A stretch of 64,000 nucleotides of DNA from a bacterium (GTDB lineage Bacteria > Patescibacteriota > Microgenomatia > UBA1406 > GWC2-37-13): assembly GCA_021789995.1 (NCBI GenBank), contig JAJYIQ010000001.1:124001-188000 (forward strand). Reading direction: 5' to 3'. Of the stretch, positions 19,589 through 63,190 are shown piece after piece (within the stretch, counting starts at the first letter, position 1; the number at the start of each line of letters is the position of its first letter). Below the pieces are notes generated by a model. That model was not told where the DNA came from. It did no database searches and saw only the letters and a list, made by a program, of their open reading frames with translations. Both the position numbers and the translations under genes were made by a program.

Positions 19589-19594
19589 TATAAT
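19589..19594 (+). promoter_or_regulatory. leaderless-type -10 box
   Basis: TATAAT followed by 7 bases and then the ATG at 19602, so transcription would begin at or next to the start codon. Confidence 0.55.
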
Positions 19595-19601
19595 TAGCAT
19601 T

Positions 19602-20315
19602 ATGGATATCCGAAATAAAATCGCTATTATTACCGGCGCTTCATCGGGAATCGGATTGGCAACGGCCAGGCTTTTTTCCAAAAAAGGAGCCATGCTGGCT
19701 TTGGCGGCACGATCGTCATGTCCAAAACTACCGGATTCCATCATTATCAGGGCCGATATAACTAAACCGGCCGATATCCGACGGATTGTCAAACAAACTT
19801 TAAAACATTTCGGCCGGATCGATATCTTAATCAATAATGCCGGCCGCGGTTATGATTCTTTGGTTACGGAAATTGATTTCAAAAAATGGCAGTATATCAT
19901 TGACCTTGATCTTTTCGGACCGGTACGGACTATGCAGGCAGTTATCCCGGTTATGAAAAAACAGCGTGGCGGTGTTATTGTCAATATCAGTTCCGGTACG
20001 GCATTGATGGTCCTGCCTTCGATGTCGCCCTATTCTTCAATCAAAAGCGCTTTAAGCAAATTGTCGCAAACCGCCAGGGAGGAGTTGGCAAACGAAAAAA
20101 TTGCGGTCAGTGTCGTTTATCCGTATATAACAGCGACAAAATTCGAAAGGAATACACTCAAATCCGTCCGTAATACCGGTGAAGAAGAATGGGACAATAC
20201 TGGTATCCCGCCGCCTGATCCGCCGGAACACGTCGCCCGGATGATTTTGGAAGCGGTCGAAACTCGCATATCGGAAATTTTCGCCCACGATTGGATGGCG
20301 AAAAACCGGAGATGA
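19602..20315 (+). CDS. short-chain dehydrogenase/reductase
   Basis: Canonical classical SDR, 237 residues. It has the NAD(P) loop ITGASSGIGLA, LINNAGRGYD, the catalytic Ser in VNISSGTALM and SPYSSIKSAL (YxxxK). It is an oxidoreductase of unknown substrate. It lies after the other SDR but has its own -10 box. The stop overlaps the promoter region of the downstream tRNA-Gly. Confidence 0.92.
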   Translation: MDIRNKIAIITGASSGIGLATARLFSKKGAMLALAARSSCPKLPDSIIIRADITKPADIRRIVKQTLKHFGRIDILINNAGRGYDSLVTEIDFKKWQYIIDLDLFGPVRTMQAVIPVMKKQRGGVIVNISSGTALMVLPSMSPYSSIKSALSKLSQTAREELANEKIAVSVVYPYITATKFERNTLKSVRNTGEEEWDNTGIPPPDPPEHVARMILEAVETRISEIFAHDWMAKNRR

Positions 20316-20321
20316 TATAAT
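20316..20321 (+). promoter_or_regulatory. -10 box for tRNA-Gly
   Basis: TATAAT lies 9 bases before the first base of tRNA-Gly and directly follows the stop codon of the SDR gene. No clear -35. Confidence 0.5.
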
Positions 20322-20330
20322 AATTAAATT

Positions 20331-20402
20331 GCGGGCGTAGTTTACCGGTAAAATGTCTCCTTCCCAAGGAGAAGACAGTGGGTCCAATTCCCATCGCCCG
20401 CT
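20331..20402 (+). tRNA. tRNA-Gly (CCC) with C at position 55
   Basis: Acceptor GCGGGCG/CGCCCGC, anticodon stem TCTCC/GGAGA with loop TTCCCAA (anticodon CCC), discriminator T73. The T arm is GTGGG-TCCAATT-CCCAT, so the near-universal T55 is C. The D loop retains GG. CCA is not encoded. Its 3' end is 17 bp from the convergent DUF2341 gene. Confidence 0.93.
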
Positions 20403-20419
20403 CACTTCAGGATCCCATT

Positions 20420-22318
20420 TCACCAACATATAAACAGGAAGCATGTCTTCTGCGGCATTTTTTTAGGGACAGGTCTGACTGTAGGAACTGGAGTTACATC
20501 TGGTGTCTTTGGTTTCCCGCCATTTTCCCGTTTAACAATAGACGGTTTTTTATTAAGTACCGGTTGAGAAATCGGCCAAGTATTTGAATGGTAAGTAACG
20601 GCATATAAACCGAGATGCTTTGTAGTCGTTGCCAACGTATTATTTACCCAATCTACAGCGATTGGCGTCGTAAGCTCTGTCCATTTTCCGGTATCGCTAT
20701 TAAAGTATGAAATATTAAGGTTGCTTGGGTCCCGTCCGTTTAACCTTGCAGGATCGTAACCTAACTGAATAATAAAAGGTCTGTCGGTAGTAATAACCGG
20801 ATAACCGTTGAATGCGGATACCGCGGCAAATTGATAAATCTCGGAAACCGTATTTAATCCCTGCGACCACGGTAGCGGTATAGTAGTATTTTTTGGTTGG
20901 GGAACATCACTTTTACCCCCGGTGAGAATTAAATTCAAAGACTGGCTTAAATTATTTAAACTGGGTTGGCTTAATGATAAAGCCAAATCGTCATGGTTAA
21001 CATTATTAGTCATTAATACGCCTGTTTGCGGTGTTGAAATATTAGAAGAAATCAGTGCCGGTAGACCGACATAGTCCGGTCCTGCCATCACTTTTTTAGA
21101 CCAGCCTGTATGATTGTTAGGATCCGGTGAACCAGAACTATCATTTGAGTTGGACGGGCTATAATAGATTTCTTCCGTACCGAAAGTATTAAAATTACCG
21201 TTTTCGCTTTGGTACTGGGCAGCTATCCAGTTGGCAGAACGAGCGGTATTGGAGATTCTGGCCTCGTCCATTATTCCGTTAAAAGAACCGCCGATTGTCG
21301 GAGAACTAGGATCACCGTTCAGGGTATCACCGATCCTCAACGGCCGAGAACTATCGTAAATGGGGGTTGTCTGGGGTGCAGTGGTTTCAAGCTTCCCATC
21401 AAGATATATTTTAATATTTTTTTCATCGTAAGTCGCAACCATATCGTACCATTTTCCTGTTTGTAAAGCTGTTGTCCCGGTAATCCAAGTCTCAATCCCG
21501 GTCCCACCGGGTGTTACCGTCATAGTGACCGTATCGTTTGAATATTTACCAAACCAGAAAGATTCTTCAATACCGCTAGTACCGTTATTGCCTCCCCGCT
21601 GACTAAGCAGCGCCTCAAAGTGGCTGTTGGTTGCCGGATTAATTAATGAGTTGAATTTAACCCACGTTTCGACTGTGATTGAAGAAACATTGAGACTACT
21701 GCTATCGTTAACAAAAGCGTAATCGCTTGAACCGCTGCTATTGAAATTTTGCGCTCCGTCCAATGGGTCGGAACCGGTATAAATTGGATTAGACACACCG
21801 GCTTTGGTCGCATTATTAGCATTCGCGGTGGAATCGGCAAGCGTCGTCCCTGACGCTTCTTTCATATGCCAGACACCCGCATAACCATTGCTCCAAACAT
21901 CACTAATATTCTGCCCGTCGCTCGCTTTGGAATTACCGTAATACATATAAATAAAATCACTGGAAGAGGACGCACGTATCAAAGGAACTTTTACCCAGAT
22001 CCATGCCTGGGAGTTGGCAGAATCCCATTTCTCAATTTCATAGGAAAGCGCCTGCGAATCATTGGAGCCGATAAATCTGATATCTTCACCGTTTGATTTT
22101 GCTTTTAAAAAATTAAAATTAGAAGCATTCAATTTAACTAAAATTGGAATGTTAGTTAAATCCTCCTGTTGCAAACTATTATTAAATGTCACGGTTTTTC
22201 TGTATGCCCAATCGCTGTCCCACCAGGCGAAAGTTTGTTTAGGAAAGCAAATAATAAATAAACCCAGAAGAGTAACAGTAATGAAAATCTTTGATTTGAA
22301 ACTAAGTCCTCTATTCAC
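20420..22318 (-). CDS. secreted DUF2341-LamG surface protein
   Basis: Signal peptide ~1-31 (IFITVTLLGLFIICFPKQTFA). It is followed by a DUF2341 module (WWDSDWAYRKTVTFNN to YMYYGNSKASDG, ~32-130), a LamG/concanavalin-like module (~145-375: GVWHMKEASGTTLADST, DGKLETTAPQ, MDEARISNTARS) and a C-terminal beta region (~400-590) ending in a Pro/Thr-rich stretch. There is no anchor motif. The start is GTG at 22318, with TATAAT 6 bases upstream. It probably binds carbohydrate at the cell surface. Confidence 0.87.
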   Translation of the reverse strand: MNRGLSFKSKIFITVTLLGLFIICFPKQTFAWWDSDWAYRKTVTFNNSLQQEDLTNIPILVKLNASNFNFLKAKSNGEDIRFIGSNDSQALSYEIEKWDSANSQAWIWVKVPLIRASSSSDFIYMYYGNSKASDGQNISDVWSNGYAGVWHMKEASGTTLADSTANANNATKAGVSNPIYTGSDPLDGAQNFNSSGSSDYAFVNDSSSLNVSSITVETWVKFNSLINPATNSHFEALLSQRGGNNGTSGIEESFWFGKYSNDTVTMTVTPGGTGIETWITGTTALQTGKWYDMVATYDEKNIKIYLDGKLETTAPQTTPIYDSSRPLRIGDTLNGDPSSPTIGGSFNGIMDEARISNTARSANWIAAQYQSENGNFNTFGTEEIYYSPSNSNDSSGSPDPNNHTGWSKKVMAGPDYVGLPALISSNISTPQTGVLMTNNVNHDDLALSLSQPSLNNLSQSLNLILTGGKSDVPQPKNTTIPLPWSQGLNTVSEIYQFAAVSAFNGYPVITTDRPFIIQLGYDPARLNGRDPSNLNISYFNSDTGKWTELTTPIAVDWVNNTLATTTKHLGLYAVTYHSNTWPISQPVLNKKPSIVKRENGGKPKTPDVTPVPTVRPVPKKMPQKTCFLFICW

Positions 22319-22324
22319 AAATAT

Positions 22325-22330
22325 ATTATA
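22325..22330 (-). promoter_or_regulatory. leaderless-type -10 box before a GTG start
   Basis: Minus-strand TATAAT, 6 bases, then GTG at 22318. A second minus-strand TATAAT lies at 22343-22348. Confidence 0.6.
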
Positions 22331-22554
22331 ATTCTACAGCTAATTATAATACTCTTTAATAAAGCAGTTTGGATAGAAGTTCATTACCACTTCAGGAATT
22401 TTTAAGCAACCTCACCGAATTCTACTTTTTCTACGGTTACATTTTTCGTAACGGCAGTTTATCGGCTGACTATGTGTTATCAATCAAGAACACGTAAGAA
22501 TCCGATAAATCGGGTTACTAATCAAATTTTTTCTTTTTGATCATTCGGGATTCC

Positions 22555-22800
22555 TTATGCTCTTCTTAGCAATCGGCCAATCCAGATTAACACAATCGCG
22601 CCGATGACAGAAACGATAATGCTATATAAATTGAGGCCTGTTATTCCCGGTTGTCCGAAAAAATTCATGATTAGTCCGCCGATAATGGCGCCGACAATGC
22701 CAAAAACAATGTCCATCAGGGCTCCCTGATTGGTGCCGACGATCATTGAGGCGAGCCAGCCGGCGATGAGACCTAACAAAATCATTACCAGAATACTCAT
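22555..22800 (-). CDS. GlsB/YeaQ/YmgE family membrane protein (transglycosylase-associated)
   Basis: Three hydrophobic segments with the family's Gly-rich pattern (GLIAGWLASMIVG, VFGIVGAIIGGLIM, SVIGAIVLIWIGRLLRRA), 81 residues. I choose the ATG at 22800 because AAAGGGGTGAT lies just upstream as ribosome site; the longer GTG start would fall within that site. Function is unclear in the family, often stress-linked. Downstream (22498-22553) are short inverted repeats that may end its transcript. Confidence 0.88.
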   Translation of the reverse strand: MSILVMILLGLIAGWLASMIVGTNQGALMDIVFGIVGAIIGGLIMNFFGQPGITGLNLYSIIVSVIGAIVLIWIGRLLRRA

Positions 22801-22908
22801 AAATATCACCCCTTTCTGTTTTCCAATTTCTAATAGAATATAAGATACAGCGGGTTGTTAAAAACCGTACAGTAATGGCGTAAGAAGGGCGTAAGATTTA
22901 AGGAATTC

Positions 22909-23424
22909 TTAAGGTTTCCAGCCTTCGTAGGCGAAGTATTTGCCATCGACGACGACGCAAACATAAGGGGTATCTTTTTCCATGTTGGCGGCATGGCCCG
23001 GCGAATTAATCCACATATTAACGACGTTTTTATAATTATCTGTTTCTGCCAGATTTTCCGTAACCTCATGATAGCCGGGATAAGGCAGTGTACGATTGTT
23101 GATTCGGCTCGTAAACCCGTCATGGCTGAAATTACCGGCGATTTCGGCCGCGCGTACGGCGGCAAAAGCACAGGTGTACCCGTCGGGCTGTACCGCCGGC
23201 AAACCTTTTGCGCGGCGGTATTCGTTTATCCCTGACAGGATTGCGACCTGCTCGGAAGTCCCCTTATTGATAACGGCGGTAGGCACGGCAGACGGCACAG
23301 GCAGCTGCGGAATTGTTTTAGCAATTACCGTTTTGGAAATTGTCGAACTGTAATATAACGGCTGCAGATTGGCAACCGGAATAAGAAACGTTATAAATAA
23401 AATAACGGCCAGTTTTTTTCTCAT
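22909..23424 (-). CDS. secreted CAP-domain (SCP/PR1-like) protein
   Basis: Signal peptide about 1-22 (LAVILFITFLIPVANL), then a CAP domain: INEYRRAKGLPAV, FSHDGFTSR, ENLAETDNYKNVVNMW and INSPGHAANM, with the His and Glu positions of the CAP cleft kept. It is 171 residues long. Bacterial CAP proteins are secreted and mostly uncharacterised. A TATCAT box lies 6 bases before the ATG. Confidence 0.92.
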   Translation of the reverse strand: MRKKLAVILFITFLIPVANLQPLYYSSTISKTVIAKTIPQLPVPSAVPTAVINKGTSEQVAILSGINEYRRAKGLPAVQPDGYTCAFAAVRAAEIAGNFSHDGFTSRINNRTLPYPGYHEVTENLAETDNYKNVVNMWINSPGHAANMEKDTPYVCVVVDGKYFAYEGWKP

Positions 23425-23430
23425 AACCTT

Positions 23431-23436
23431 ATGATA
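23431..23436 (-). promoter_or_regulatory. possible leaderless -10 box
   Basis: Minus-strand TATCAT, 6 bases, then the ATG of the CAP gene at 23424. Confidence 0.4.
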
Positions 23437-23510
23437 AAAGCCGGTAACAAGTCGGTCAAGCGGCCTGAACCGTTAACAAGGCTAAAAAATCCCCATATTC
23501 TTACATTTGC

Positions 23511-23516
23511 TATAAT
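23511..23516 (+). promoter_or_regulatory. leaderless-type -10 box
   Basis: TATAAT, 6 bases, then ATG at 23523. No convincing -35. Confidence 0.6.
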
Positions 23517-23522
23517 AAAATC

Positions 23523-24137
23523 ATGCAGTTTGTCATTTTCCACGGTGCCTTCGGAAATAAAAATGGTAATTGGTTTCCTTGGTTGAAAAATAAATTAATC
23601 GAATTAAAACAGGAGGTCATTCTCGAGCAATTTCCTATCGAGAATTGGGATAAAGTACTCAAAACGGGTAAAAATTACCAAGTAAAAAACCAAACTTTGG
23701 CTAATTGGCTGCGCTTTTTCGAAAAAAACATTTTGCCGAAAATCAAGAAAAACGGCCGTTTATGCTTTATCGGCCATTCCCTCTCACCGGTATTTATTCT
23801 TCACCTGGTCGATAAATTCAATCTGCAGCTTGATTCGGCCATTTTCGTTGAACCTTTTATGGAAGCCTTGAAGCTGGATAATGTCTGGATGTTCGATCTT
23901 GTCAATGCCAGCTTTTACAAAACAGGTTTTGATTTTAAGAAATTAAAAAGACATATTCCCAAGTCTTACGTCGTATATTCGGATAATGACGAGTATGTGC
24001 CGATAAAATTGCCGCTAACATTCGCTGAAAAAATGGGCAGTGAAAAAATACTGGTCAAGGATGGCCGCCACCTGGGCGAAAACTTCCCCGAATTCCCCCT
24101 CGTACTCGATCTCTGCCTATTGCGAATAAAATTATGA
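23523..24137 (+). CDS. RBBP9/YdeN-type small alpha/beta hydrolase
   Basis: A 204-residue serine hydrolase fold: FHGAFGNKNGNWFPWL at the N-terminus, nucleophile elbow GHSLS, acid in YSDNDEYVP and His in GRHLGENF. The pattern fits the RBBP9/YdeN family, whose substrates are largely unknown. There is no signal peptide, so it is cytosolic. Confidence 0.85.
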   Translation: MQFVIFHGAFGNKNGNWFPWLKNKLIELKQEVILEQFPIENWDKVLKTGKNYQVKNQTLANWLRFFEKNILPKIKKNGRLCFIGHSLSPVFILHLVDKFNLQLDSAIFVEPFMEALKLDNVWMFDLVNASFYKTGFDFKKLKRHIPKSYVVYSDNDEYVPIKLPLTFAEKMGSEKILVKDGRHLGENFPEFPLVLDLCLLRIKL

Positions 24138-24176
24138 ATTAGTGTTATAATAATTTCAATCAAGTGCCGATGTAGC

Positions 24177-24196
24177 CCTGCCTGCCGGCAGGCAGG
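24177..24196. repeat. 20-bp perfect GC-rich palindrome
   Basis: A perfect inverted repeat centred on CTGCCGGCAG, in the short gap before tRNA-Thr. I see no second copy in the window. It could form a small hairpin or be a dispersed palindrome. Confidence 0.75.
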
Positions 24197-24218
24197 TCAG
24201 CTGGCAATAATTGTTTCA

Positions 24219-24293
24219 GCCGACTTAGCTCAATGGTAGAGCAACGGTATCGTAAACCGTAGGTTATCGGTTCAAGTCCGATAGTCGGCTCCA
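24219..24293 (+). tRNA. tRNA-Thr (CGT) with encoded CCA
   Basis: Acceptor GCCGACT/AGTCGGC, anticodon stem ACGGT/ACCGT with loop ATCGTAA (anticodon CGT), T arm ATCGG-TTCAAGT-CCGAT, discriminator T, and CCA encoded at 24291-24293. It is the only CCA-encoding tRNA of the four here. One base later an ATG opens the next gene. Confidence 0.96.
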
Positions 24294-24294
24294 T

Positions 24295-25002
24295 ATGTCG
24301 CGACTGGAACGGCATCAGAAAAATCAATTGACGGCAAAAATTGTCGTATTTTCGGTGATTTTATTGATTGTCGTTTATTTCGTTCTCACCATCGGGTTCA
24401 AACTCCTTTTCAGCATGTCGCTATTCATTGCCGGAATGACCAACAAAACCGGCAGCGTTCCCCTGACAAAGACAAGTGATATTGTCGGCAGTGTTGATGT
24501 CAATTCGATTCCCGTCGCCACCAATTCGGCGACAATCACTGTTGGTGGCTCGGTCATGAACCTCAATAAAATCGAATTTTATATCAACGACGTAAAAGTG
24601 AAGAGTGTCACTCTTGACGCCTCCGACAGCTTCAACGAAGATATCGGCAATCTTCAAAAAGGCGATAACAGCGTTTATGTCAAAGCTTTCTCGTCGGACG
24701 GACAACTGCAGAAACACTCAAAAACTTTTGATGTCTTTTATAAACCGGACAAACCAAAACTCGACATCTCCCAGCCGGCCGATAAAACCAAAACCGACAA
24801 TCCGGATATCGTCGTTCATGGCACGACCGACAAGGAAACTTTTGTCAAGATAAACGATTCACCGGCGGTCGTCGATGCTAACGGCACTTTCGATATGGAT
24901 ATCCAGCTGAAAGAAGGCGACAATCCGATTACCGTCACGGCGACCGATGACGCCGGAAATACGGAGACTAAGACGCTAACGGTCACCTACCAGAAGGATT
25001 AA
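24295..25002 (+). CDS. membrane-anchored protein with Ig-like domains
   Basis: One membrane helix (about 15-40, KIVVFSVILLIVVYFVLTIGF), then two beta-sandwich modules of bacterial Ig-like type (~60-150 and ~155-235), the second with KLDISQPADKTKTDNPDIVV and GDNPITVTATDDAGNTETK. It is 235 residues long. The ATG comes one base after the tRNA-Thr CCA, with no room for a ribosome site. Its message would be leaderless once the tRNA is cut away. A later start at 24415 (MSLFIAGM) would remove the helix and is less likely. The 3' end overlaps the convergent O-antigen ligase gene by 27 bp. Confidence 0.82.
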   Translation: MSRLERHQKNQLTAKIVVFSVILLIVVYFVLTIGFKLLFSMSLFIAGMTNKTGSVPLTKTSDIVGSVDVNSIPVATNSATITVGGSVMNLNKIEFYINDVKVKSVTLDASDSFNEDIGNLQKGDNSVYVKAFSSDGQLQKHSKTFDVFYKPDKPKLDISQPADKTKTDNPDIVVHGTTDKETFVKINDSPAVVDANGTFDMDIQLKEGDNPITVTATDDAGNTETKTLTVTYQKD

Positions 25003-26040
25003 CCCCAGCAAAAACATAATAAACGGGTGAAGTAAAATATTATCCGTAAACGACATCAATACCAGAAAGACAACATACAAAGCGGCCTGTTTATTGAACA
25101 GCAATAAACGATACAATATTGCCCCGAATAATGCCAGACCGATAATCCCTCCGGTAACCAGAATGATGAGAAAACTGCTGCTATAACCGGAGCTGGCATG
25201 GCCCTGGCCGCGCTTAATATGGTTGTAACCGATACCGATCAATGGATTCTTTGTCCAAACGCTTATTGCTTCATGATAATCGGCAAGCCGTGATTCAATG
25301 GAAAAAACGCGTGTTAGACCGACACCCCGGCCGAAATTGGTCGGGATAAATATCAGTATGGTTAAAAAAATAAAAACACCGGTAATAAACAATTTTAGCT
25401 GCCGGCGGGAAAAAAAATAGTAAAACATCGTAACGAATAATACGATGTATGCACTCCGGGAGTAAGTTAAAATGATAAATACCAAATAGATCACGATCGT
25501 GATCAAATTGGTATTAATAATTAATAAATATAAAAATATTAAACCGTATACGGCCGCCGCCACCGACGTATCGAAAAAGACACCAAATAACCGGTGGTAA
25601 TGCGGATCCCAACCAAGGTAGATCAGATTACGCAGGTTCGGGTATAAAAAAAATTGGACCAGCGAACTGGTTACCGTCAACCAGATAAAAACGAATAGGT
25701 GCTTCTTTGTAATGTGCCGATAAATATAAACGAAAAATAACCAATAAAATAACAGTCGCCCCCAGTAAAGGAAGCCGACCAAATTTCTTTGCCAGCCGTA
25801 CTGCGGTATGTTAATCAAAAATGATAACAACAGATAACCGAGAAAAAAATACACCAGGCGGATTTTATTCCATGATAAGGATAACGGCTTGAATCGGTAC
25901 TTAAAGAATGAAACTGCCAAGACAATGGCCATTGACAATTCATATAAATAAAAATTTACCTGTTGGTTATGAATAGATATTCTTCCCAGTTGTCCAAAAG
26001 AAAATAACAAAATGGTTAAATAGAGTAGTGCGTTTAACAT
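24976..26040 (-). CDS. O-antigen ligase/polymerase-like membrane protein
   Basis: Polytopic protein of 354 residues with about ten hydrophobic helices. The Wzy_C/WaaL-type region is ESRLADYHEAISVWTKNPLIGIGYNH, followed by a periplasm-facing loop and GGIIGLALFGAILYR. It probably joins or polymerises surface glycan units. It stands at the downstream end of a glycosyltransferase row on the minus strand. Confidence 0.85.
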   Translation of the reverse strand: MLNALLYLTILLFSFGQLGRISIHNQQVNFYLYELSMAIVLAVSFFKYRFKPLSLSWNKIRLVYFFLGYLLLSFLINIPQYGWQRNLVGFLYWGRLLFYWLFFVYIYRHITKKHLFVFIWLTVTSSLVQFFLYPNLRNLIYLGWDPHYHRLFGVFFDTSVAAAVYGLIFLYLLIINTNLITIVIYLVFIILTYSRSAYIVLFVTMFYYFFSRRQLKLFITGVFIFLTILIFIPTNFGRGVGLTRVFSIESRLADYHEAISVWTKNPLIGIGYNHIKRGQGHASSGYSSSFLIILVTGGIIGLALFGAILYRLLLFNKQAALYVVFLVLMSFTDNILLHPFIMFLLGLILLVGDR

Positions 26041-26058
26041 AGAATTCGTGAAAATCCG

Positions 26059-26862: not shown

Positions 26863-26865
26863 TGA

Positions 26866-27825
26866 TTATTTATTATATAACTTCGTCAGCTCTGAAACAT
26901 AACGCTTCCATGAAAATTTCCTGACAATTGCCTTAGCATCGAATTTTACTCCTTCGCCCTTTAAAACCTTTTGAACTTTTTCAACAAAATCATATTTATC
27001 GTTTGCCACATTGACATAAGGCGCCAGTTCGGGAATAATGGCCGACTGCAAACCGACGACCGGCGTTCCCTGCGATAGCGCTTCCAGTACCGGCAGATTG
27101 AAACTTTCGTAATGGGAAGCGGTCAATAAGGCGGTCGCACCCAAATATAAACGCCGCAGTTGCTGCCGGCTGGCCGCTGTTGCTTGTTTCAGTTCGTACC
27201 GTGGAAATTCCTTCATGATCCGGTGCAAAAATCCGGTGTTTTTAATCGGGTGATTCATCCCGACATATAATAAATATTTTTTACGACTTTCGTTGTTCGA
27301 TCGTACAGCGAAAGTCATGTCCGCCGGTACGCCGAAAGGGATGACTTTTACGTTTTTACGATTTGGGAATAATTCATTCATCTCTTTCCTAACTTTTCGA
27401 GAAGAAACGATAATGGTATCGGCCCGTCTGACCATTTCTCCCAAATAAATACTCATCCGCCAAAAAATATCCCGGTAATAATGAGGAAAATAACGGTACG
27501 ACAAACCATGGGAAAAAGCGATGATTTTTGCCCGTGTATACAAAGGAATTGCCTGATTCAAGGCAAGAAAAACATGGCTGTTTTGCAAAAATTCTTCCAG
27601 GCTGACGCGGGTTTTCATCCACAGACGCCGCGGCAAAAGGATGCGGTAATCAGATAGTCCGGTCATTTGCAATTCCAACGGCTTTTGGCACAGCGAATAA
27701 AGAGCATAATAATTATTTTTGTCATAATTGAGGATCGACTGGATTAAGTTGAATGAAAACACATAATTGCCGAATTTATAGCCGGGCGGGGCGCATAAGC
27801 CGCCGGCATCAATGGCGATACGCAT
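26866..27825 (-). CDS. GT4-type glycosyltransferase
   Basis: GT-B fold, 319 residues. The C-terminal half has the sugar-nucleotide signature ESFNLPVLEALSQGTPVVG and KKYLLYVGMNHPIKNTGFL, typical of glycosyltransferase group 1. The N-terminus reads MRIAIDAGGLCAPPGYKFGNY. It overlaps the GT2-flippase gene by 17 bp, so translation is likely coupled. It should add a hexose to the surface glycan. Confidence 0.9.
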   Translation of the reverse strand: MRIAIDAGGLCAPPGYKFGNYVFSFNLIQSILNYDKNNYYALYSLCQKPLELQMTGLSDYRILLPRRLWMKTRVSLEEFLQNSHVFLALNQAIPLYTRAKIIAFSHGLSYRYFPHYYRDIFWRMSIYLGEMVRRADTIIVSSRKVRKEMNELFPNRKNVKVIPFGVPADMTFAVRSNNESRKKYLLYVGMNHPIKNTGFLHRIMKEFPRYELKQATAASRQQLRRLYLGATALLTASHYESFNLPVLEALSQGTPVVGLQSAIIPELAPYVNVANDKYDFVEKVQKVLKGEGVKFDAKAIVRKFSWKRYVSELTKLYNK

Positions 27826-29740
27826 AGTATTTGGCCCAGACTATCCGGGTAATTATAAGTAATATTATCAGATTGACCAGTTCCGACAGGACGGTATTGA
27901 TGCTGGCCGCCATAAATGAATAGCGGGGGATGAAAATCAGGTTCAACCCGAAGTTGAAAATCGTCTGGAAAAGAAAAACAAAAATTACCAGATAAGCCTT
28001 CTTCAGGACATATAGAATATTAAGGAAAACCGAATTAAGAAGCAAAAAAGGCAGGGCGAAAGTTACGGTTTTGAGGACGGGAATCGACGGCTGAAAATTA
28101 CTTTTAAGTATATATGGCAGTATCGGCGGCGCGAGAAAGTATATTCCCAAAGCCGTTCCCAAACCGACGAACGCCAAAAAAACGAGGTCTTTTTTTATCT
28201 TACTGATAAACAAGCGGTTGTTTTTCGCCAGCCGGGCAAAAACCGGCGTTGCCGTGACATTATAACTGGCGGCAATAAAAAGCAAAGCGTCAAAAAATTT
28301 ATAGCCGGCCGAATAAATCCCGACAGCCTCTTCCCCTTTCATTCCCTTGAGTAAAAACACGTCGAGATTGAAATACAGTTCACCGAAAAAGGCGATCAGA
28401 ACGAAAACATACGACTGCTTGATAATCGCCAACCAGCCGGCCGGATCGAATTTAAAAACCAGGCGGCGTAATTCATGGCGAAGTAAAAAGTAATTGGCCG
28501 CAGCATACCCGGCGTAAAAAAGGAAGATAACGATAAACACTGCCAACAGCCGCCGGGTCAGAAACAAAACGGTGATGATCGTCGATATCAGAAACAGGTT
28601 AAAAATAAACGAATTGCGTGAAGATACGAAAATTTTTTCCTTGATGGCGTTCCAAATAAAATAACTGCCGGACATCATATTCGTGAAAATGGCGATCGAC
28701 GTCACCAAAATGTAGATAAAAATTTTCTGGCTACCATGGAATATGATACCCGCCAGGATTACCGTCAGGGCAAAAATAACCAGCGACAGGAAAAATCGTA
28801 GGCTGACCAGTGTTCGAAAACGCTCTTCCTTTTCCGTCGGTAGATGGACGATTCCATAGGAAGTGGTGCCAAAATCGACTAAAGGAGATAGCAGACCGAC
28901 TTGCGCCCAGACCAAAGTATAGATACCGTATTCCGGCACTGTCAGGAAGCGGATGAGGAAAATAAAATTAACAAAATTCAATAACCGGGTAAAAAAGGAC
29001 GATAAATTCATGCTGAAGAAATTGACCAAAAAAGGCCGCTTAACTATCTCCTCGAAGATTGTTTTAGGCGAGCGGATCAATTCGCGGATTTTTTGGCGGA
29101 AATTGCTGTACTGCCAGAAAAAAAATAACCGGTTACGGGCCAGCAGGTAATCTTTTTGCGGGTTGGCTCGGTTGGATACTTCCAGATGCTTATATTTCCA
29201 AGCGGTGTCGATCCCCACTTTTAATTCCATTTGTCTTGCCCGGTAGCAATACTCAACTTCTTCATAATAAATAAAGTATTTTTCGTTAAGGAATCCCAGC
29301 CGGTCGATCGCCTTGCGGTTAACGATCATGAACGAACCGGAAATGAAATCGCGCTCGGCAAAACGCGCATCCGGTTTTTCCTTGATCAAGCCGCCGCTCA
29401 TCCGCCAATGGTCGATTTCTCCGCCGTAATAAGTAATACCATCTTGTTTCATCGCCCCACCCCAGATATCAAAATGGCTTTTTCCGGCCAACAGGTCCTT
29501 GGCAGTCAAACCAACAAGGGAAATATCTGGATTGCTGATAATAAATAAGTCACAACCGTCTTTTATTGCCTGACGGAGGCACTCGTTGATACCGACGGCA
29601 TAACCGCGGTTATCCCGGCGCTTGTCGCTCACATAAAAATGCCAATCGGAAAAACCTAAACCGGCGATTTCCTTTTCCAACCGCCTGATATTTTTTAATT
29701 CCTCAGTCCGGTAAAATGTCGTTACCCAGGCAATTTTCAT
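27809..29740 (-). CDS. GT2 glycosyltransferase fused to a Wzx-like flippase
   Basis: A 643-residue two-part protein. Residues 1-~235 are a rhamnosyltransferase-like GT2 (DNRGYAVGINECLRQA, FIISNPDIS, GSFMIVNRKAIDRLGFLNE, YYEEVEYCYRARQM). From ~240 onward there are about twelve membrane helices with the MOP/oligosaccharide-flippase pattern (LTVPEYGIYTLVWAQVGL, AVGIYSAGYKFFDALLFIA). The fusion would tie addition of a sugar to export of the lipid-linked glycan. It opens the minus-strand glycan operon and starts from a shared ATTATAAT promoter. Confidence 0.88.
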   Translation of the reverse strand: MKIAWVTTFYRTEELKNIRRLEKEIAGLGFSDWHFYVSDKRRDNRGYAVGINECLRQAIKDGCDLFIISNPDISLVGLTAKDLLAGKSHFDIWGGAMKQDGITYYGGEIDHWRMSGGLIKEKPDARFAERDFISGSFMIVNRKAIDRLGFLNEKYFIYYEEVEYCYRARQMELKVGIDTAWKYKHLEVSNRANPQKDYLLARNRLFFFWQYSNFRQKIRELIRSPKTIFEEIVKRPFLVNFFSMNLSSFFTRLLNFVNFIFLIRFLTVPEYGIYTLVWAQVGLLSPLVDFGTTSYGIVHLPTEKEERFRTLVSLRFFLSLVIFALTVILAGIIFHGSQKIFIYILVTSIAIFTNMMSGSYFIWNAIKEKIFVSSRNSFIFNLFLISTIITVLFLTRRLLAVFIVIFLFYAGYAAANYFLLRHELRRLVFKFDPAGWLAIIKQSYVFVLIAFFGELYFNLDVFLLKGMKGEEAVGIYSAGYKFFDALLFIAASYNVTATPVFARLAKNNRLFISKIKKDLVFLAFVGLGTALGIYFLAPPILPYILKSNFQPSIPVLKTVTFALPFLLLNSVFLNILYVLKKAYLVIFVFLFQTIFNFGLNLIFIPRYSFMAASINTVLSELVNLIILLIITRIVWAKYYAYRH

Positions 29741-29749
29741 TTACCGTAT

Positions 29750-29757
29750 ATTATAAT
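29750..29757. promoter_or_regulatory. bidirectional ATTATAAT promoter core
   Basis: ATTATAAT reads TATAAT on both strands. Plus strand: 7 bases to the epimerase ATG at 29765. Minus strand: 9 bases to the flippase-fusion ATG at 29740. The two start codons are only 24 bp apart, so both mRNAs would be leaderless or nearly so. Confidence 0.65.
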
Positions 29758-29764
29758 TGACTGC

Positions 29765-31544: not shown

Positions 31545-31552
31545 ATTATAAT
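31545..31552. promoter_or_regulatory. bidirectional ATTATAAT promoter core
   Basis: The same 8-base core as at 29750. Plus strand: 8 bases to the radical SAM ATG at 31561. Minus strand: 6 bases to the GT2 ATG at 31538. The start codons are 22 bp apart. Confidence 0.65.
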
Positions 31553-37405: not shown

Positions 37406-37422
37406 AGATCGGAGGTGAAAAA

Positions 37423-54811: not shown

Positions 54812-54842
54812 ATAGTTTACTTTTAATTATATCAAAATCCTG

Positions 54843-54848
54843 TATAAT
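54843..54848 (+). promoter_or_regulatory. leaderless-type -10 box
   Basis: TATAAT, 7 bases, then ATG at 54856 of lepB. The box overlaps an earlier in-frame ATG (54847), which therefore should not be the start. Confidence 0.6.
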
Positions 54849-54855
54849 GAAATTT

Positions 54856-55953: not shown

Positions 55954-55960
55954 GTATTAA

Positions 55961-55966
55961 ATTATA
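55961..55966 (-). promoter_or_regulatory. leaderless-type -10 box before a GTG start
   Basis: Minus-strand TATAAT, 7 bases, then GTG at 55953. Confidence 0.6.
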
Positions 55967-56207: not shown

Positions 56208-56238
56208 ATTTTTTAGTTATAACTGTCTTTAACTCGCT

Positions 56239-56553
56239 TCATCCGATTTTAACTATTTTTAACTGCGTAAGGTGCGGACGGAATCCGGTTACTTTGCGGT
56301 AGCGTACTTTCGCTTTGAACTTCGCCACCCGGATTTTATCGCCTTTTACCTGGCTGATGACTTCTGCCTTGATTCCTTTAGCCAAAGTAGGCATCCCTAA
56401 TTTCAGCGATTTTCCTTCATTATCAAACATCGCCAATACCGGCAGTTCGACTGTCTCTTTTTCCTTATTGGGAAGCTTATCGACGGTAATAATATCCTGT
56501 TCTTTGACAAGATACTGCTTTCCACCGGTTTTGACAACGGCAAAATTTACCAT
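56239..56553 (-). CDS. rplU: ribosomal protein bL21
   Basis: 104 residues, the normal size: FAVVKTGGKQYLVKEQDIITVDKL at the start, then KAEVISQVKGDKIRVAKFKAKVRYRKVTGFR, the bL21 signature. It is first in the rplU-rpmA unit, with TATAAT 6 bases before the ATG. Confidence 0.96.
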   Translation of the reverse strand: MVNFAVVKTGGKQYLVKEQDIITVDKLPNKEKETVELPVLAMFDNEGKSLKLGMPTLAKGIKAEVISQVKGDKIRVAKFKAKVRYRKVTGFRPHLTQLKIVKIG

Positions 56554-56559
56554 TTTTTA

Positions 56560-56565
56560 ATTATA
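56560..56565 (-). promoter_or_regulatory. leaderless-type -10 box before rplU
   Basis: Minus-strand TATAAT, 6 bases, then ATG at 56553. The site also lies just downstream of the rodA stop. Confidence 0.6.
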
Positions 56566-56575
56566 CCGGAATTTA

Positions 56576-57610: not shown

Positions 57611-60597
57611 ACTTGGACTGTCAGTTCGCTACCTGCTTCAACTTTCTCCGCCATGATTTTCTTTTTGATGTAGTCAAGATCTTCGAGAAAACGGTCGGGG
57701 ACAGTCACTTTTACCTTATCCGTCGGCTTGAGTCCCAGTAGTTTTCTTTCCGCCTGGATTTTGCGGATGAGATCCCGCAGCTCCCCTTCCTTGGCGAGTT
57801 CTTCCTCGTTGACGGCCACTTCTTTTTTCGGGTACTTGACTTTACCGTTGATTTCCAAATTCTTCACGTTTAATTCTTTCAGCACCACTTCCCAGACGTC
57901 ACTGCCGACATTCGTAAATTCGCCGTCCGCCGTTACTGCCAATTTTGCCAACGGCATTCTCACTTTCAGATTTTCGCCTTTCCTTTTGGCATGTCCCGCT
58001 TCCGCCACTTTTCTCGCCAACATCATTTCTTCTTCCAGTTTTGAATTTTGAATTTTGAGTTTTGCACTTACTGCTGGCCAATCAGCCAGATTAACCGATT
58101 CTTCCCCGGTTAAATTAACGTAAATTTCTTCGCTTATAAAAGGCATGAAAGGAGACAAGACAACTGATAGGTTGACTAAAATAAAATGCAAAGTGCTGTA
58201 AAAATCGTTCTTATCTTTTTCGTCTTCGGAATTGGTCCAAACGCGGTCGCGGCTCCGGCGTATGTACCATGTCGATAAATCACTGACAAATTTTTCCACT
58301 TCGCCGGCCGCATCCTGGGCGTCATAAATTTTCAGGCTTTCAGCAATGAATTCGACCAGACCGACGAACCGGCTCATTATCCATTTATCCAAAACGGTCA
58401 TGTCATTGCGAGAAACGTAGTGATGAAGTAATCTGTCACCGCGTTTTACGGAGTCGGATGGAACCCATTTATCCAAATTTGCGTATTCCACAAAAAACTT
58501 ATACACATTCCACAACATCAGGTAAAACTGCCGCCGGACTTCATCGGCTTTTTTGTAGCCGAAAAGCATATTTTCCGCTGGATTCTGCCGGCAAAACATC
58601 CAGCGCATGACATCGACGCCGATTTTGTCGGCACCTTCGGCGAATTCGATGGCATTGCCCCAGCTTTTATGCATCGGCCGGCCGTCTTCGCCCAAGAGGG
58701 TGCCGAAACCGAGAACGGTCTTGTAGGGGTTTTTGTTTTCGAGAACGGTTGATTCGGCGATCAGTGCGTAAAACCAGTTCTTGAATTGCCCGGGAAAACT
58801 TTCGGTGATGAAATCGGCCGGAAACCAATGCCGCCATTCCGTCTTGTTTTTCCAATACAACGGTTCGCCCCGGTTATTTTCCTTTATCGTAGAATAAGAA
58901 ACGATACCGGCGTCCAGCCACGGATTGCCGACATCACCGATTCGGGATACTATCTCGCCGCATTTTTGGCACCTGATCTTCACTTCGTCGATAAACGGCT
59001 TATGCGGCGTATGGCCGGCAAATTCTTCCCAGCCGGCGACCGCCCGTTTTTTCAGTTCTGCCTTTGAACCGATGACTTCATATGTGCCGCATTGTTTGCA
59101 TTCGAAGATCGGCAACGCCAACCCCCAGTAACGGTTTGGTTTACTTATCAGCCAATCGTGCATGTTTTTGAGCCAGTCGAGTTCGCGATCCAGCCCGAAT
59201 TTCGGCCGCCAATTGATTTCTTTTGCCACCGCCATCATTCGTTTTCTTAGTGTAAGATTTTTTTGCTTGCCGGCCGAAGCCTTGCGCGAAGGATGGTCCA
59301 TTGCGATATACCATTCATCCGCCACTTTCCAAACGAGTTCCGTCTTACACCGCCAGCAGGCCGGATAACGGTGCTTATAATGATGAATTTTGAAAGCATA
59401 ACCTCTCTTTTCCATGTAATCAAGAATAAGCCGCGGATTTTTTTTGGCGTTTTTCTCCGACAGGAAATCCATTCCCGACAGGTAATCGGCGTTATCGGCG
59501 ATAACGGGAATCATCGGCAGCCCCAGTTTTTTACCGAGTTTGAAATCCTCGGCGCCGGCGGAAACGGCCGTATGGACCATACCGGTGCCTTCGGTTAGCG
59601 TAATCGGCAGGATATTTTCGTCGGTTGCAACGACGGTATGGAAGGTTTTTGGGTTTTTTTCGGCGACTTCCTTCACTCGTGGCAAATGGTCAAATGCCGC
59701 CTCGTACTTCAAACCGGCCAGTTTCTTGCCCTTAACGGTTTTAACGATTTTTTTATAATCTTTGCCAAAAACCGCCGGAATTAATTCCCGGGCTAACCAA
59801 TAATTTTTGCCATCCGTCCCTTCCACCAAGCTGTAATCGTATTTTTCATCGATGGCGACGGCAATATTGGCGGGAATCGTCCACGGCGTCGTCGTCCATA
59901 CCAGTAAAAAGGTATTTGGTAATTCGTAATCCGTAATTCGTAATTTAAAATAAATCGATTCATGAACCACTTCCTTGTAATCTTCCGTCAGCATTTCGTG
60001 CTGTGAGATTGCCGTTTCGCAACGCGGACACCAGGGGACGGATTCATGGCCTTTGTAAATCCAGCCGTTATCGTAGCAAACCTTGAGAAAATCCCAGATC
60101 ATATAATTGTTGTCGTCGCTCATTGTATAGTAGGAATTATCCCAATCCATGAAGTAACCGAGGCGTTTTGATTGCTCGGTCTGGATGCCGGAAAATTTCA
60201 TAACACGGTTTTTACAAAGCTGGACAAATTTAGCAATTGATGCTTTGCGGTCGCCCGGTACAAGATTTTCGATTTCTTTTTTGTTTTTCAAACCAAGCTC
60301 TTTTTCCACTTCAACCTCAACCCACAATCCCTGGCAGTCAAAACCGTTTTGGAAACGCTGTTTCTGACCCAACAAATTATGAAACCGCTGCCATAAATCC
60401 TTGTATGTCCGGCCCCAGGCATGGTGGACTCCCATCGGATTGTTGGCGGTAATCGGGCCGTCGAGGAAGGAAAAATAATTTTTTGATGTGTCGTTTTTAC
60501 GAAGATATTTTTGGACGATGCCTTTTTCGTACCAGTGCTTGAGCCACTTTTTCTCCATCTCGGGAAAATTGGTATTATTGTCGACCGGTTTGAACAT
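57607..60597 (-). CDS. ileS: isoleucyl-tRNA synthetase with altered signature motifs
   Basis: Class I synthetase of ~996 residues. The HIGH region reads GVHHAWGRTYKD and the KMSKS region GRPMHKSWGNAIEF. The editing domain (VWTTTPWTIPANIAVAID, TGMVHTAVSAGAEDFKLG), zinc-type Cys pairs (CPRC, CWRC, CKQC, CQKC) and DWDNSYYTMSDDNNYM identify IleRS. These belong to a distinct bacterial subgroup as I recall it. I use the ATG at 60597, 8 bases after TATAAT; a TTG at 60606 is in frame. Two short-period repeats lie in it, in the editing domain (~217-226) and near the C-terminus (~843-853). Confidence 0.93.
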   Translation of the reverse strand: MFKPVDNNTNFPEMEKKWLKHWYEKGIVQKYLRKNDTSKNYFSFLDGPITANNPMGVHHAWGRTYKDLWQRFHNLLGQKQRFQNGFDCQGLWVEVEVEKELGLKNKKEIENLVPGDRKASIAKFVQLCKNRVMKFSGIQTEQSKRLGYFMDWDNSYYTMSDDNNYMIWDFLKVCYDNGWIYKGHESVPWCPRCETAISQHEMLTEDYKEVVHESIYFKLRITDYELPNTFLLVWTTTPWTIPANIAVAIDEKYDYSLVEGTDGKNYWLARELIPAVFGKDYKKIVKTVKGKKLAGLKYEAAFDHLPRVKEVAEKNPKTFHTVVATDENILPITLTEGTGMVHTAVSAGAEDFKLGKKLGLPMIPVIADNADYLSGMDFLSEKNAKKNPRLILDYMEKRGYAFKIHHYKHRYPACWRCKTELVWKVADEWYIAMDHPSRKASAGKQKNLTLRKRMMAVAKEINWRPKFGLDRELDWLKNMHDWLISKPNRYWGLALPIFECKQCGTYEVIGSKAELKKRAVAGWEEFAGHTPHKPFIDEVKIRCQKCGEIVSRIGDVGNPWLDAGIVSYSTIKENNRGEPLYWKNKTEWRHWFPADFITESFPGQFKNWFYALIAESTVLENKNPYKTVLGFGTLLGEDGRPMHKSWGNAIEFAEGADKIGVDVMRWMFCRQNPAENMLFGYKKADEVRRQFYLMLWNVYKFFVEYANLDKWVPSDSVKRGDRLLHHYVSRNDMTVLDKWIMSRFVGLVEFIAESLKIYDAQDAAGEVEKFVSDLSTWYIRRSRDRVWTNSEDEKDKNDFYSTLHFILVNLSVVLSPFMPFISEEIYVNLTGEESVNLADWPAVSAKLKIQNSKLEEEMMLARKVAEAGHAKRKGENLKVRMPLAKLAVTADGEFTNVGSDVWEVVLKELNVKNLEINGKVKYPKKEVAVNEEELAKEGELRDLIRKIQAERKLLGLKPTDKVKVTVPDRFLEDLDYIKKKIMAEKVEAGSELTVQV
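58036..58071. repeat. short-period repeat inside ileS
   Basis: TTTTGAATTTTGAATTTTGAG-like units code for KLKIQNSKLEE near the C-terminus. Confidence 0.65.
59918..59949. repeat. short-period repeat inside ileS
   Basis: Units TAATTCGTAATCCGTAATTCG (period ~9-10) code for KLRITDYELPNT just before the conserved VWTTTPWT of the editing domain. Confidence 0.65.
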
Positions 60598-60605
60598 AAT
60601 CTTCA

Positions 60606-60611
60606 ATTATA
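60606..60611 (-). promoter_or_regulatory. leaderless-type -10 box before ileS
   Basis: Minus-strand TATAAT, 8 bases, then ATG at 60597. It overlaps the stop codon of the upstream P-type ATPase. Confidence 0.55.
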
Positions 60612-63177
60612 GCAAATTTTTCAGCGCCTCAAACCAAATGATACTGACCAAACCGGCGGCTGCAACAAGCAGATAATCATTATTGTGGAGAGTCGAGAAA
60701 TAAAACAATTCCCGCAAAAACGGCACTGAAATAATTATTAACAGAAATATTACTGTTAACGACAGTACCAGATATAACGCCTTATTCTTCTCAAGAATTA
60801 TTTTCACAAAATTTTTCGACCAGGAAAGATTGGTGATTATAAGCATTAAATTAGCCAGTACCAAAGTCAAGAAAGCCGGCGTCCGGTCTTTGGTCAAAAC
60901 ATATACCAGAAAAACGATTCCGAGGACACCCAATCCCTGAAGGCTGCTTCTGATCAGACTTGCCCGACCAAACAGCGGCTCCTTCAAATTACGCGGCGGC
61001 CGTTCCATGATGTTTCCCTCCTCCTTTTCCGATTCAAAAACCACCGAACAGGCCGGATCGATAATCAGTTCCAGAAAGGCGATATGCGCCGGCATGAGAA
61101 CTATCGGCATTTGCAGCATAACCGGTAAAAGAGCCATTCCGGCAATCGGCACATGAACTGCCAACGTATACGCCATTGCCTTTTTCAGGTTGTCAAAAAT
61201 CCGCCGACCCAGACGAACAGCTTTTACGATCGATGAAAAATCGTCGTTAAGGAGTACCAAATCAGCCGCCTCACGGGCGACATCTGTCCCTCGTTCGCCC
61301 ATGGCGATGCCGATATGAGCCGCTTTCAACGCCGGAGCGTCGTTGACGCCGTCCCCGGTCATGGCGACGATCTCACCGTTGGCTTTCAAGGCATTGACAA
61401 TCGCCAGTTTTTGTTCCGGCACCACCCGGGCAAAGATATTCGTATTTTTAATTTTTTCCCTTAATTGTAAATGGTCCAGTTTTGCCAATACAGGCCCGAT
61501 AATAAAATTTTCGGGATTCTTGATACCGATCTGCCGGGCAATATATTGTGCCGTCCCCGGATAATCGCCGGTAATCATGATGACACGCATGCCGGCCCGG
61601 TGAGCCTCTGCCACTGCTTCCGGCACAGTGGAACGGATCGGATCGGAAAAACCCAATAAGCCGACGAATTCAAAATTGAAATCATGTTGTTTTTCGGGAA
61701 GCGACTGTTTCCTGAATGACGCTTTGGCAACAGCAATCACCCGCAAACCGCGGTCAGCCATTTGTTGGATTTGCACTGTCATGGTTTTGATTTGCTTTTC
61801 GTTGAAATGGCACAGTTCGGCCACCGCTTCCGGCGCCCCTTTGGCGGCGATAACAAGATCTGTTTTTGCGGGCGATTCCCAAACATGCGACAGGGCAAGC
61901 AGTTTCTTTGACAGGGGATATTCGTGGATAAATTTCCAGGATTTATGAATATGTTCGGTCTGGCCAAGAAATAAATCCCCGGCTTTTTTAACCTCCTTTT
62001 CGATCGGGTCAAACGGATCTTTTTGGCTAGCGAGGATCGCGTATTCCAACAAGTGATGGTAATCCTCCGGCAATTGCCGGTCACCGGCCGTGATTTTATG
62101 GGAACAATTACCGGTACGCATCATCTGTAATTCCATTTTATTAAGGGTCAGCGTCCCGGTTTTATCGACGCACAAAGCCGTCGCCGCTCCCAGTGTTTCG
62201 ATAGCGGCGGATTTGCGCGTCAAGACTTTGCTTTTGGAAATTCGCCAGGCACCAAGAGCCAAAAATACCACTAAGATTACGCCGAACTCCTCCGGCAGGA
62301 CAGCCATACTCAAACTTAAACCGGCCAAAAAACCCTGTAACCAATGGCCGCGGGTCAAACCAAAAATAACGACAACAAGGACGGAAACGAATATACCGGC
62401 GATGGCAAATTTTTTGACGATCTGGCCGGTTTCTTTTTGCAACAGGGTATCTTCTTCGGTGATCGATTCCAATGAACGGCCGATTTTCCCCATTTCCGTA
62501 TGGATACCGGTGGCAAATACTCTGGCGATGCCGTGTCCCTGGGTGATCATTGTGCCGGAGAAAACTTTGAACTCATTATTGATTGTTGTTGCAGGTGTCG
62601 CGAGTGAGGTGTCTCTTCGAGAAGCGGATTTCCGGAGTTGCCGGAAGAGCCTCGCAGAAGAGAAGGGATCACGAGCGACAGAATCTGCAACAGCATATTC
62701 TCTTTTCATTACCGGCAATGATTCACCCGTCAGTAGCGATTCATCCACCAGAAGATTCGCCGAATAAAGCACTACCGCATCCGCCGGCACCCGGTCGCCT
62801 TCCTGCAGAACCAGGATATCATCCCGGACTACTTCCCGGCCGGCGATACGCAACTGCTCCCCGCCACGGATAACAAGCGCCCGCGGGCTGGACAAATCCT
62901 TCAGCGCTTCAAGCGCTCTTTCGGTTTTTTGTTCCTGGTAAAAAGTGATGCCGACAACGACGATGACAAAGGATAGTAACATTAAGGCATCCCGCGGTTC
63001 GCCGAGAAACAGGTAGATGATGCCACTGCCGATAATTAGAAGCAGCATCGGCTCGGTGATTACTTCCCATAAGATCACCCAAACACTTTGTTTTTTTTGT
63101 TCTGGCAACTCATTATAACCCTCCGCTTTCAGTTTGTCCGCCGCTTCCTTTTCCGTCAGTCCGGTATATTTTGTCAT
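60607..63177 (-). CDS. P2-type cation-transporting ATPase
   Basis: Calcium-ATPase-like pump of ~856 residues: N-terminal cation-ATPase domain (TGLTEKEAADKLKAEGYNELP), ten or so helices, TLLTGES-type actuator motif (DESLLTGESLP), phosphorylation site DKTGTLT, KGAPEAV, and TGDGVNDAPALK. The M4 motif is PEEFGV rather than the PEGL of SERCA-type pumps, so the ion is uncertain. I start at the ATG at 63177, 7 bases after TATAAT; the ORF can extend to 63186. Confidence 0.93.
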   Translation of the reverse strand: MTKYTGLTEKEAADKLKAEGYNELPEQKKQSVWVILWEVITEPMLLLIIGSGIIYLFLGEPRDALMLLSFVIVVVGITFYQEQKTERALEALKDLSSPRALVIRGGEQLRIAGREVVRDDILVLQEGDRVPADAVVLYSANLLVDESLLTGESLPVMKREYAVADSVARDPFSSARLFRQLRKSASRRDTSLATPATTINNEFKVFSGTMITQGHGIARVFATGIHTEMGKIGRSLESITEEDTLLQKETGQIVKKFAIAGIFVSVLVVVIFGLTRGHWLQGFLAGLSLSMAVLPEEFGVILVVFLALGAWRISKSKVLTRKSAAIETLGAATALCVDKTGTLTLNKMELQMMRTGNCSHKITAGDRQLPEDYHHLLEYAILASQKDPFDPIEKEVKKAGDLFLGQTEHIHKSWKFIHEYPLSKKLLALSHVWESPAKTDLVIAAKGAPEAVAELCHFNEKQIKTMTVQIQQMADRGLRVIAVAKASFRKQSLPEKQHDFNFEFVGLLGFSDPIRSTVPEAVAEAHRAGMRVIMITGDYPGTAQYIARQIGIKNPENFIIGPVLAKLDHLQLREKIKNTNIFARVVPEQKLAIVNALKANGEIVAMTGDGVNDAPALKAAHIGIAMGERGTDVAREAADLVLLNDDFSSIVKAVRLGRRIFDNLKKAMAYTLAVHVPIAGMALLPVMLQMPIVLMPAHIAFLELIIDPACSVVFESEKEEGNIMERPPRNLKEPLFGRASLIRSSLQGLGVLGIVFLVYVLTKDRTPAFLTLVLANLMLIITNLSWSKNFVKIILEKNKALYLVLSLTVIFLLIIISVPFLRELFYFSTLHNNDYLLVAAAGLVSIIWFEALKNLL

Positions 63178-63184
63178 TACTATC

Positions 63185-63190
63185 ATTATA
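63185..63190 (-). promoter_or_regulatory. leaderless-type -10 box
   Basis: Minus-strand TATAAT, 7 bases, then ATG at 63177. It overlaps an earlier ATG (63186), which is thus unlikely to be the start. Confidence 0.6.

Follow-up and report, generated by a model that had tools for sequence, protein, structure and literature searches.

Introduction

Leaderless genes, whose mRNAs begin at or close to the start codon, account for about 20% of genes in Actinobacteria and about 40% in Deinococcus-Thermus (Zheng et al., 2011, PMC3160421), and leaderless transcription has been predicted in 21.6% of bacterial species (cited in StartLink, PMC9581028). In the TA-led genes of Zheng et al., a TA-like -10 signal lies about 10 bp before the start codon, and a TG peak, reported there for Lactococcus, possibly replaces the missing -35 element; the section describing them covers 953 bacterial genomes and does not name the candidate phyla radiation (CPR). 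Here we consider a 64,000-nucleotide stretch (the window; C3:124001-188000) of a bacterial genome of 898,136 bases in 4 contigs (93% complete), in which the hexamer TATAAT stands directly before many start codons. The organism is, as judged by its DnaE relatives, a Microgenomates-like CPR bacterium, the nearest among the matches listed being a Roizmanbacteria-titled locus (56% identity) and then a Collierbacteria-titled one (52%). Its boxes resemble those of TA-led genes in position and in the preceding TG, and differ from them in that the genome is also nearly without Shine-Dalgarno (SD) sequences and that some divergent genes share a box. Leaderless transcription, of the known kind, is very probably prevalent in this genome, combined with a near loss of the SD and with promoters shared in two directions.

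Three other described systems come close. Bidirectional promoters (Warman and colleagues; PMC10268837, PMC12825309) also have a near-palindromic -10 element serving both strands; the passages of the E. coli paper that deal with them report that they often drive mRNAs and that the polymerase orientations compete. Transcript starts of such promoters are usually 18 bp apart, whereas here both products are predicted to be leaderless mRNAs, with start codons 15–32 bp apart in the six pairs of this genome that have boxes on both strands. SD-blind Bacteroidia (PMC9976891), in the parts of the paper describing them, likewise keep the anti-SD of 16S rRNA intact, scarcely use the SD and retain at least one extended-SD gene. 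Unlike them, the present genome has prominent leaderless promoters; there the 16S tail is sequestered by bS21, bS18 and bS6, and a bS21 match is present here. CPR bacteria that make little use of the SD are also known (PMC10783764); the CPR rows in that source lack a conserved CCUCC in 16S rRNA, whereas the present genome retains it, and in the sections concerned nothing is claimed about leaderless genes in CPR. A paper on CPR ribosome biogenesis (PMC12641178), in its relevant part, gives YchF, which has been linked to leaderless translation, as broadly conserved. A full-text literature search, in which subscription papers and preprints were mostly outside coverage, showed among the papers listed no description of leaderless transcription for CPR and, judged by titles, none of leaderless combined with bidirectional promoters. 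The kind is already known, and a near-absent SD with an intact anti-SD, joined to shared leaderless divergent promoters, is a variant worth testing.

CPR bacteria make up a large uncultivated share of bacterial diversity, and gene finders rely on SD signals. Where a promoter directly adjoins the start codon, the sequence alone is enough to fix the transcript start as well as the protein start. The family studied here may serve as a natural bacterial model of ribosomes that seldom use the SD although their anti-SD is intact, and one in which a single palindromic -10 box may control two leaderless genes.

Enrichment of the box at start codons

A sequence-only reading of the window had proposed that at least ten start codons carry TATAAT 6–9 nt upstream. 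Exact TATAAT was found at all 12 starts that it named (10 ATG and the two GTG codons 22318 and 55953), with spacers, in the order of that list, of 7, 6, 6, 9, 7, 6, 8, 7, 7, 6, 8 and 7 nt. The window holds 53 called genes, 11 with the box at the start of best coding score and 14 at a plausible start. Since control windows of the genome contain exact TATAAT in 1.4% of genes, fewer than one boxed gene would be expected by chance among these 53.

The same enrichment extends across the genome. A coding-score script blind to promoters called 426 genes in 464 kb (hereafter the own sample), and the box occurred at a spacer of 5–9 nt in 54/425 genes with coding-best starts, 55/425 with longest starts and 61/416 with first-ATG starts. 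At 56–57% A+T, TATAAT is common by composition, and chance or misassigned start codons could in principle produce such a pattern; 200 shuffles of the upstream sequences gave a mean of 2.6 boxed genes and maxima of only 7–9, and the box is kept at starts fixed by homology (see below), so that this explanation retains next to no probability. The spacer distribution peaks at 6 nt under all three start rules (21, 22 and 28 genes), flanked by shoulders at 7, 8 and 9 nt, and the whole genome contains 180 copies of TATAATN{5,8}ATG and 60 of the reversed pattern.

Comparison sets, E. coli among them, were put through one uniform pipeline. The family set comprises 38 stretches, one of which (L104, 11 kb) belongs to the window's own genus; the fetched stretches L175 and L176, from other families, are excluded. 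A set of other loci was taken from the best 80 DnaE loci listed, most of them titled CPR or Patescibacteria, and consists of 71 of these (L021-L091, with L092-L100 excluded), whose titles are mostly CPR or Patescibacteria, some just bacterium and one (L076) Planctomycetota. TATAAT at a spacer of 5–9 nt was found in 59/416 genes of the own sample (control 6.0), 63/525 of the family relatives (4.4), 38/873 of the other loci, nearly all CPR (14.2), and 0/171 in E. coli (0.2); across all 80 DnaE loci the count was 40/932 (14.4). The enrichment at -6 to -9 that the reading had called for, against shuffles and in related genomes, is therefore strong, and, as in TA-led genes, a -10-like signal some 10 bp upstream of the start codon stands above background.

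The fraction of genes concerned was taken as the excess over control windows at spacer 6–9, which gives lower bounds. For TATAAT, TANAAT and TAnnnT respectively, the own sample (n=416) has an excess of 13%, 20% and 31% of genes, the family set (n=524) one of 11%, 17% and 27%, and the other loci (n=872) one of 3%, 7% and 13%, with zero excess for any of the three in E. coli (n=170). A weight matrix places the figure at no less than 25% overall and 40% of divergent genes with one start per gene, and at 31% and 54% when several candidate starts are allowed. A three-component expectation-maximisation mixture assigned 83% of genes to a promoter component, yet also 68–82% in three shuffles; the model was overfitted, and its estimate was discarded in favour of the control-window excess.

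At order level, the box pattern is more frequent than its backward control in 48/48 genomes examined (sum 6789 versus 2652), and the same is true of 206/240 genomes of a phylum sample; ordered by excess the present genome takes 4th place in that sample, and ordered by ratio 17th. A very high excess of TATAATN{5,8}ATG also marks several genera of another CPR family (f27; G159, G203, G214 and G285), for instance 207 versus 43 in G159.

Orthologs keep the box at matching positions. Of 50 genomes in which rplU has a match, the present one included, the best 30 loci were compared: exact TATAAT lies 4–11 nt before ATG in this genome and in 23/29 relatives; one of the 23 has it before a start that lies 23 codons upstream of where homology places it, leaving 22/29 at the homology-fixed ATG. 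The rplU of one relative (L134) has TATAAT ten nt before ATG with GGAGGG in between, a promoter and an SD-like word within 10 nt. Orthologs of lepB, counted by eye, carry TA[ACGT]AAT 6–9 nt before ATG in 18/22 cases, often with a TTGT-like -35 element about 17 bp above the box. Overall, the box (at most one mismatch) is kept in 66/89 ortholog pairs of boxed genes (21 genes; control 8.2), against 36/145 pairs for genes without a box (83 genes; control 13.0).

Nature of the box

An AT-rich hexamer in front of start codons might act on the ribosome, as a non-SD binding signal of the kind used in Bacteroides and relatives, rather than on RNA polymerase. The SD is nearly absent here, a 358-aa frame with three S1-domain matches exists, and start regions are A/T-rich in general. 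The box nevertheless has the company that a promoter would keep. Of 122 boxes, 38 are preceded by TGn, whereas other positions average 6.3; at -5 relative to the box, T is the preferred base. Weak boxes are richer in TGn and in a -35 TTG, as compensating promoter elements would be: TGn accompanies 36/68 promoters with TA[ACG]AAT and 38/117 with TATAAT (Fisher p 0.008), and TTG at -35 accompanies 19/68 and 16/117 (Fisher p 0.02). Exact TATAAT also lies 7–15 nt before the mature 5' end of 9/19 tRNA genes, and divergent first genes are boxed more often (23/112) than the other classes (7/94, 4/66 and 20/152). Upstream of divergent or far genes, exact TATAAT at spacer 5–9 is found 30 times on the sense strand and 9 times on the antisense strand, although the bias is slight once one mismatch is allowed (60 sense, 50 antisense). 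We therefore read the box as a promoter, because of TGn, the compensation, the tRNA promoters, the conservation in orthologs and a TATAAT strand bias limited to spacer 5–9, and regard a ribosome signal as very unlikely.

It had also been claimed that most of these promoters lack a -35 element. This stands for the majority, and no excess of the consensus TTGACA over shuffles was seen. The wording has to be softened because a test for TTG alone, 16–18 bp upstream, revealed a minority with a -35 element (8/56 TATAAT boxes, control 2.1; 9/31 TA[ACG]AAT boxes, control 1.6). An altered sigma factor was considered as well and is unsupported: RpoD scores above its curated cut-off, and its regions 2–4 look canonical by eye in comparison with E. 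coli.

If the box is a promoter, it could still be a secondary one, with the main mRNAs starting farther upstream and carrying leaders. Some room for this is left by the 20/152 boxed genes that lie close behind a same-strand neighbour, which may also be read from an upstream promoter. At spacers of 10–199 nt upstream of divergent or far genes, however, the sense excess of exact TATAAT is absent (65 sense, 72 antisense), in a test that would miss leadered promoters whose boxes are degenerate, and hardly any SD is available to leadered mRNAs. We consider such an arrangement unlikely.

The preferred reading, leaderless transcription, draws its support from the enrichment and the promoter-like features. 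RNA polymerase with its primary sigma factor would bind a -10 box of the TATAAT type that sits mostly 6–9 nt before the start codon; many of these boxes are extended by TGn, and a minority are aided by a TTG -35 element. Transcription begins about 7 nt after a -10 box, so the first base of the mRNA should coincide with the start codon or lie no more than about three nt from it, and ribosomes would have to load on a 5'-terminal AUG or GTG. Both this transcript start and 5'-terminal initiation are predictions from what was observed, namely the box with its spacing and features, its conservation and the scarcity of the SD.

Several observations weigh against this reading. Spacers of 7–9 nt leave room for leaders of 1–3 nt, and the transcript starts are predicted only. 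Exact TATAAT stands before just 14% of genes, the 31% bound uses the loose TAnnnT, and the matrix with one start per gene gives 25%. The strand bias nearly disappears with one mismatch, as noted. Three genes of one locus (lepB, 55953 and rplU) supply 68 of the 89 ortholog pairs of boxed genes, so that the per-gene means of box retention, 0.70 for boxed and 0.27 for unboxed genes, are the fairer comparison, and 55953 itself retains the box in just 7/20 orthologs. The most similar full ortholog of 31561 (62% identity) has its box 11 nt upstream and lacks a divergent partner at such a distance; conservation of the promoter shared by 31538 and 31561 was not found. Short divergent gaps also occur in E. 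coli (2/34 pairs), and a whole-genome count of GGAGGN{3,8}ATG (98, versus 44 backwards) conflicts with an absence of the SD; these last two points are taken up below.

Use of the Shine-Dalgarno sequence

That the boxed genes lack an SD is borne out statistically, and the near absence of the SD throughout the genome is a feature on which the sequence-only reading had not remarked. SD words stand before 18 of 416 starts in the own sample (control 14) and before 20 of 525 in the family set (control 18), against 87 of 873 in the other loci (control 20; 91 in all 80 DnaE loci, control 21) and 36 of 171 in E. coli (control 2). Genes close behind a same-strand neighbour have no SD excess (14/152, control 22), and an SD occurs in 1/89 ortholog pairs of boxed genes (control 2). 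As to the conflicting GGAGG count, SD words in the sample number 57 at the right spacing and 43–49 at wrong spacings, which suggests that the backward control is biased and that this explains most of the difference between 98 and 44.

The anti-SD is nonetheless intact. The 16S tail of this genome reads GGATCACCTCCT and was identified as 16S by Rfam; the gene, missed by the initial Rfam scan, was recovered with a pattern for the tail and by another Rfam scan. It is truncated by the end of contig C4 (L191), with 613 bases present. The intact tail GGATCACCTCCT is found in 36/57 genomes, with 18 having no match at three mismatches and 3 having variants only. G038 and G041 (family f3) differ within the anti-SD core, having GGATCATCTCCT rather than GGATCACCTCCT where the 16S 3' end probably lies, and most genomes of family f2 have zero match to the tail pattern. 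A bS21 match is present, as is the 358-aa open frame already mentioned.

GGAGG is correctly placed at 9/1022 candidate starts, one of which looks internal to a coding region by eye. About eight genes have a strong SD, several of them with a long complement such as AAAGGAGGTGAT. In the window, the SD GGAGGTGA (37411..37418, +) precedes ATG 37423 of a 204-aa protein, secreted-looking by eye, and provides a rare SD-led contrast to the boxed genes. Among the strong-SD proteins of the 464-kb sample are, by eye, secreted-looking, penicillin-binding-protein-like and cysteine-desulfurase-like ones. The genome resembles the Bacteroidia in having an intact anti-SD and an SD that is hardly used, with some eight strong-SD genes remaining. 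An inverse relation between SD use and box use was expected across the phylum; in 240 genomes the crude ratios are positively correlated (Spearman 0.33), which leaves a trade-off unsupported, and no conclusion is drawn from this value because both ratios use backward-pattern controls and that for the SD is apparently biased.

Head-to-head pairs around one box

Boxes shared by divergent genes had likewise gone unremarked. In the window, two pairs of start codons, 25 bp (29740/29765) and 23 bp (31538/31561) apart, each enclose one copy of exactly the same self-complementary sequence, ATTATAAT. The first copy (29750..29757, both strands) provides the -10 box of ATG 29740 (-) with a spacer of 9 and of ATG 29765 (+) with a spacer of 7, in a divergent gap of 24 bp; the second (31545..31552, both strands) provides that of ATG 31538 (-) with a spacer of 6 and of ATG 31561 (+) with a spacer of 8, in a gap of 22 bp. 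In three of the four proteins a domain or family match already starts within the first eight residues, which leaves little room for other starts in those three. As in bidirectional promoters, -10 boxes on both strands share bases within a short region.

Divergent gaps of 10–39 bp are found in 10/68 pairs of the own sample and 10/73 of the family set, compared with 2/116 in the other loci (own and family together, 20/141 versus 2/116, Fisher p 0.0002) and the 2/34 of E. coli. Where the gap is 14–39 bp, TAnnnT occurs on both strands (spacer 5–10) in 6/10 own pairs, 3/10 family pairs and 0/2 pairs of the other loci. The loose TAnnnT alone is unspecific for shared boxes, since pairs with gaps of at least 60 bp show the pattern too (own 12/40, family 11/52, other loci 15/105). 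Some divergent genes 14–31 bp apart would thus be served by a box on both strands, and the two window pairs by a single self-complementary one. Two polymerases should compete for the one melting site of such a box, and those leaving in the two directions should exclude each other.

A wider proposal, to which we give somewhat less than an even chance, is that the 5' untranslated region has been largely abandoned in this CPR family: leaderless initiation would be the default for first genes, only a few genes would still have an SD although the anti-SD is intact, and some head-to-head pairs would be arranged around a single 8-bp palindromic -10 box acting as a two-way switch that yields either leaderless mRNA.

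Other boxed genes of the window

The window contains further boxed genes besides the two pairs. On the forward strand, TATAAT at 19589..19594 (spacer 7) precedes ATG 19602 of a short-chain dehydrogenase, and TATAAT at 23511..23516 (spacer 6) precedes ATG 23523 of a protein of a serine hydrolase family, for which the coding-best start is 23583. On the reverse strand, TATAAT at 22325..22330 (spacer 6) precedes GTG 22318 of a concanavalin-like/DUF2341 protein, a start that is less certain because the coding-best one, 22174, lies downstream. TATAAT at 55961..55966 (-, spacer 7) precedes GTG 55953 of a protein with a ParB-HTH match, that at 56560..56565 (-, spacer 6) precedes ATG 56553 of rplU (ribosomal protein bL21), where it is kept in relatives, and that at 60606..60611 (-, spacer 8) precedes ATG 60597 of a class I aminoacyl-tRNA synthetase of the I/L/M/V group. 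Two boxed starts were absent from the earlier list, namely ATG 3153 (-) of a 162-aa open reading frame (ORF), with TATAAT at 3162..3167 and a spacer of 8, and ATG 26862 (-) of a 267-aa ORF, with TATAAT at 26872..26877 and a spacer of 9.

At two genes the box had been said to overlap an earlier in-frame ATG and so to resolve the true start. Both overlaps are real: TATAAT at 54843..54848 (+, spacer 7, before ATG 54856 of signal peptidase I, lepB) overlaps ATG 54847, and TATAAT at 63185..63190 (-, spacer 7, before ATG 63177 of a P-type cation ATPase) overlaps ATG 63186. The lepB orthologs favour 54856 over 54847, because the overlapping in-frame ATG occurs only in the same-genus ortholog. For 63177 a single distant ortholog (31% identity) gives backing; there, TATAAT stands 6 nt upstream of the ATG.

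The reverse-strand member of the first divergent pair (27809-29740) encodes a protein of 643 aa whose N-terminal part gives a rhamnosyltransferase-like match over residues 44-185, at a score below the curated cut-off. A polysaccharide-flippase domain follows at residues 239-504, and the protein is apparently a fusion of the two.

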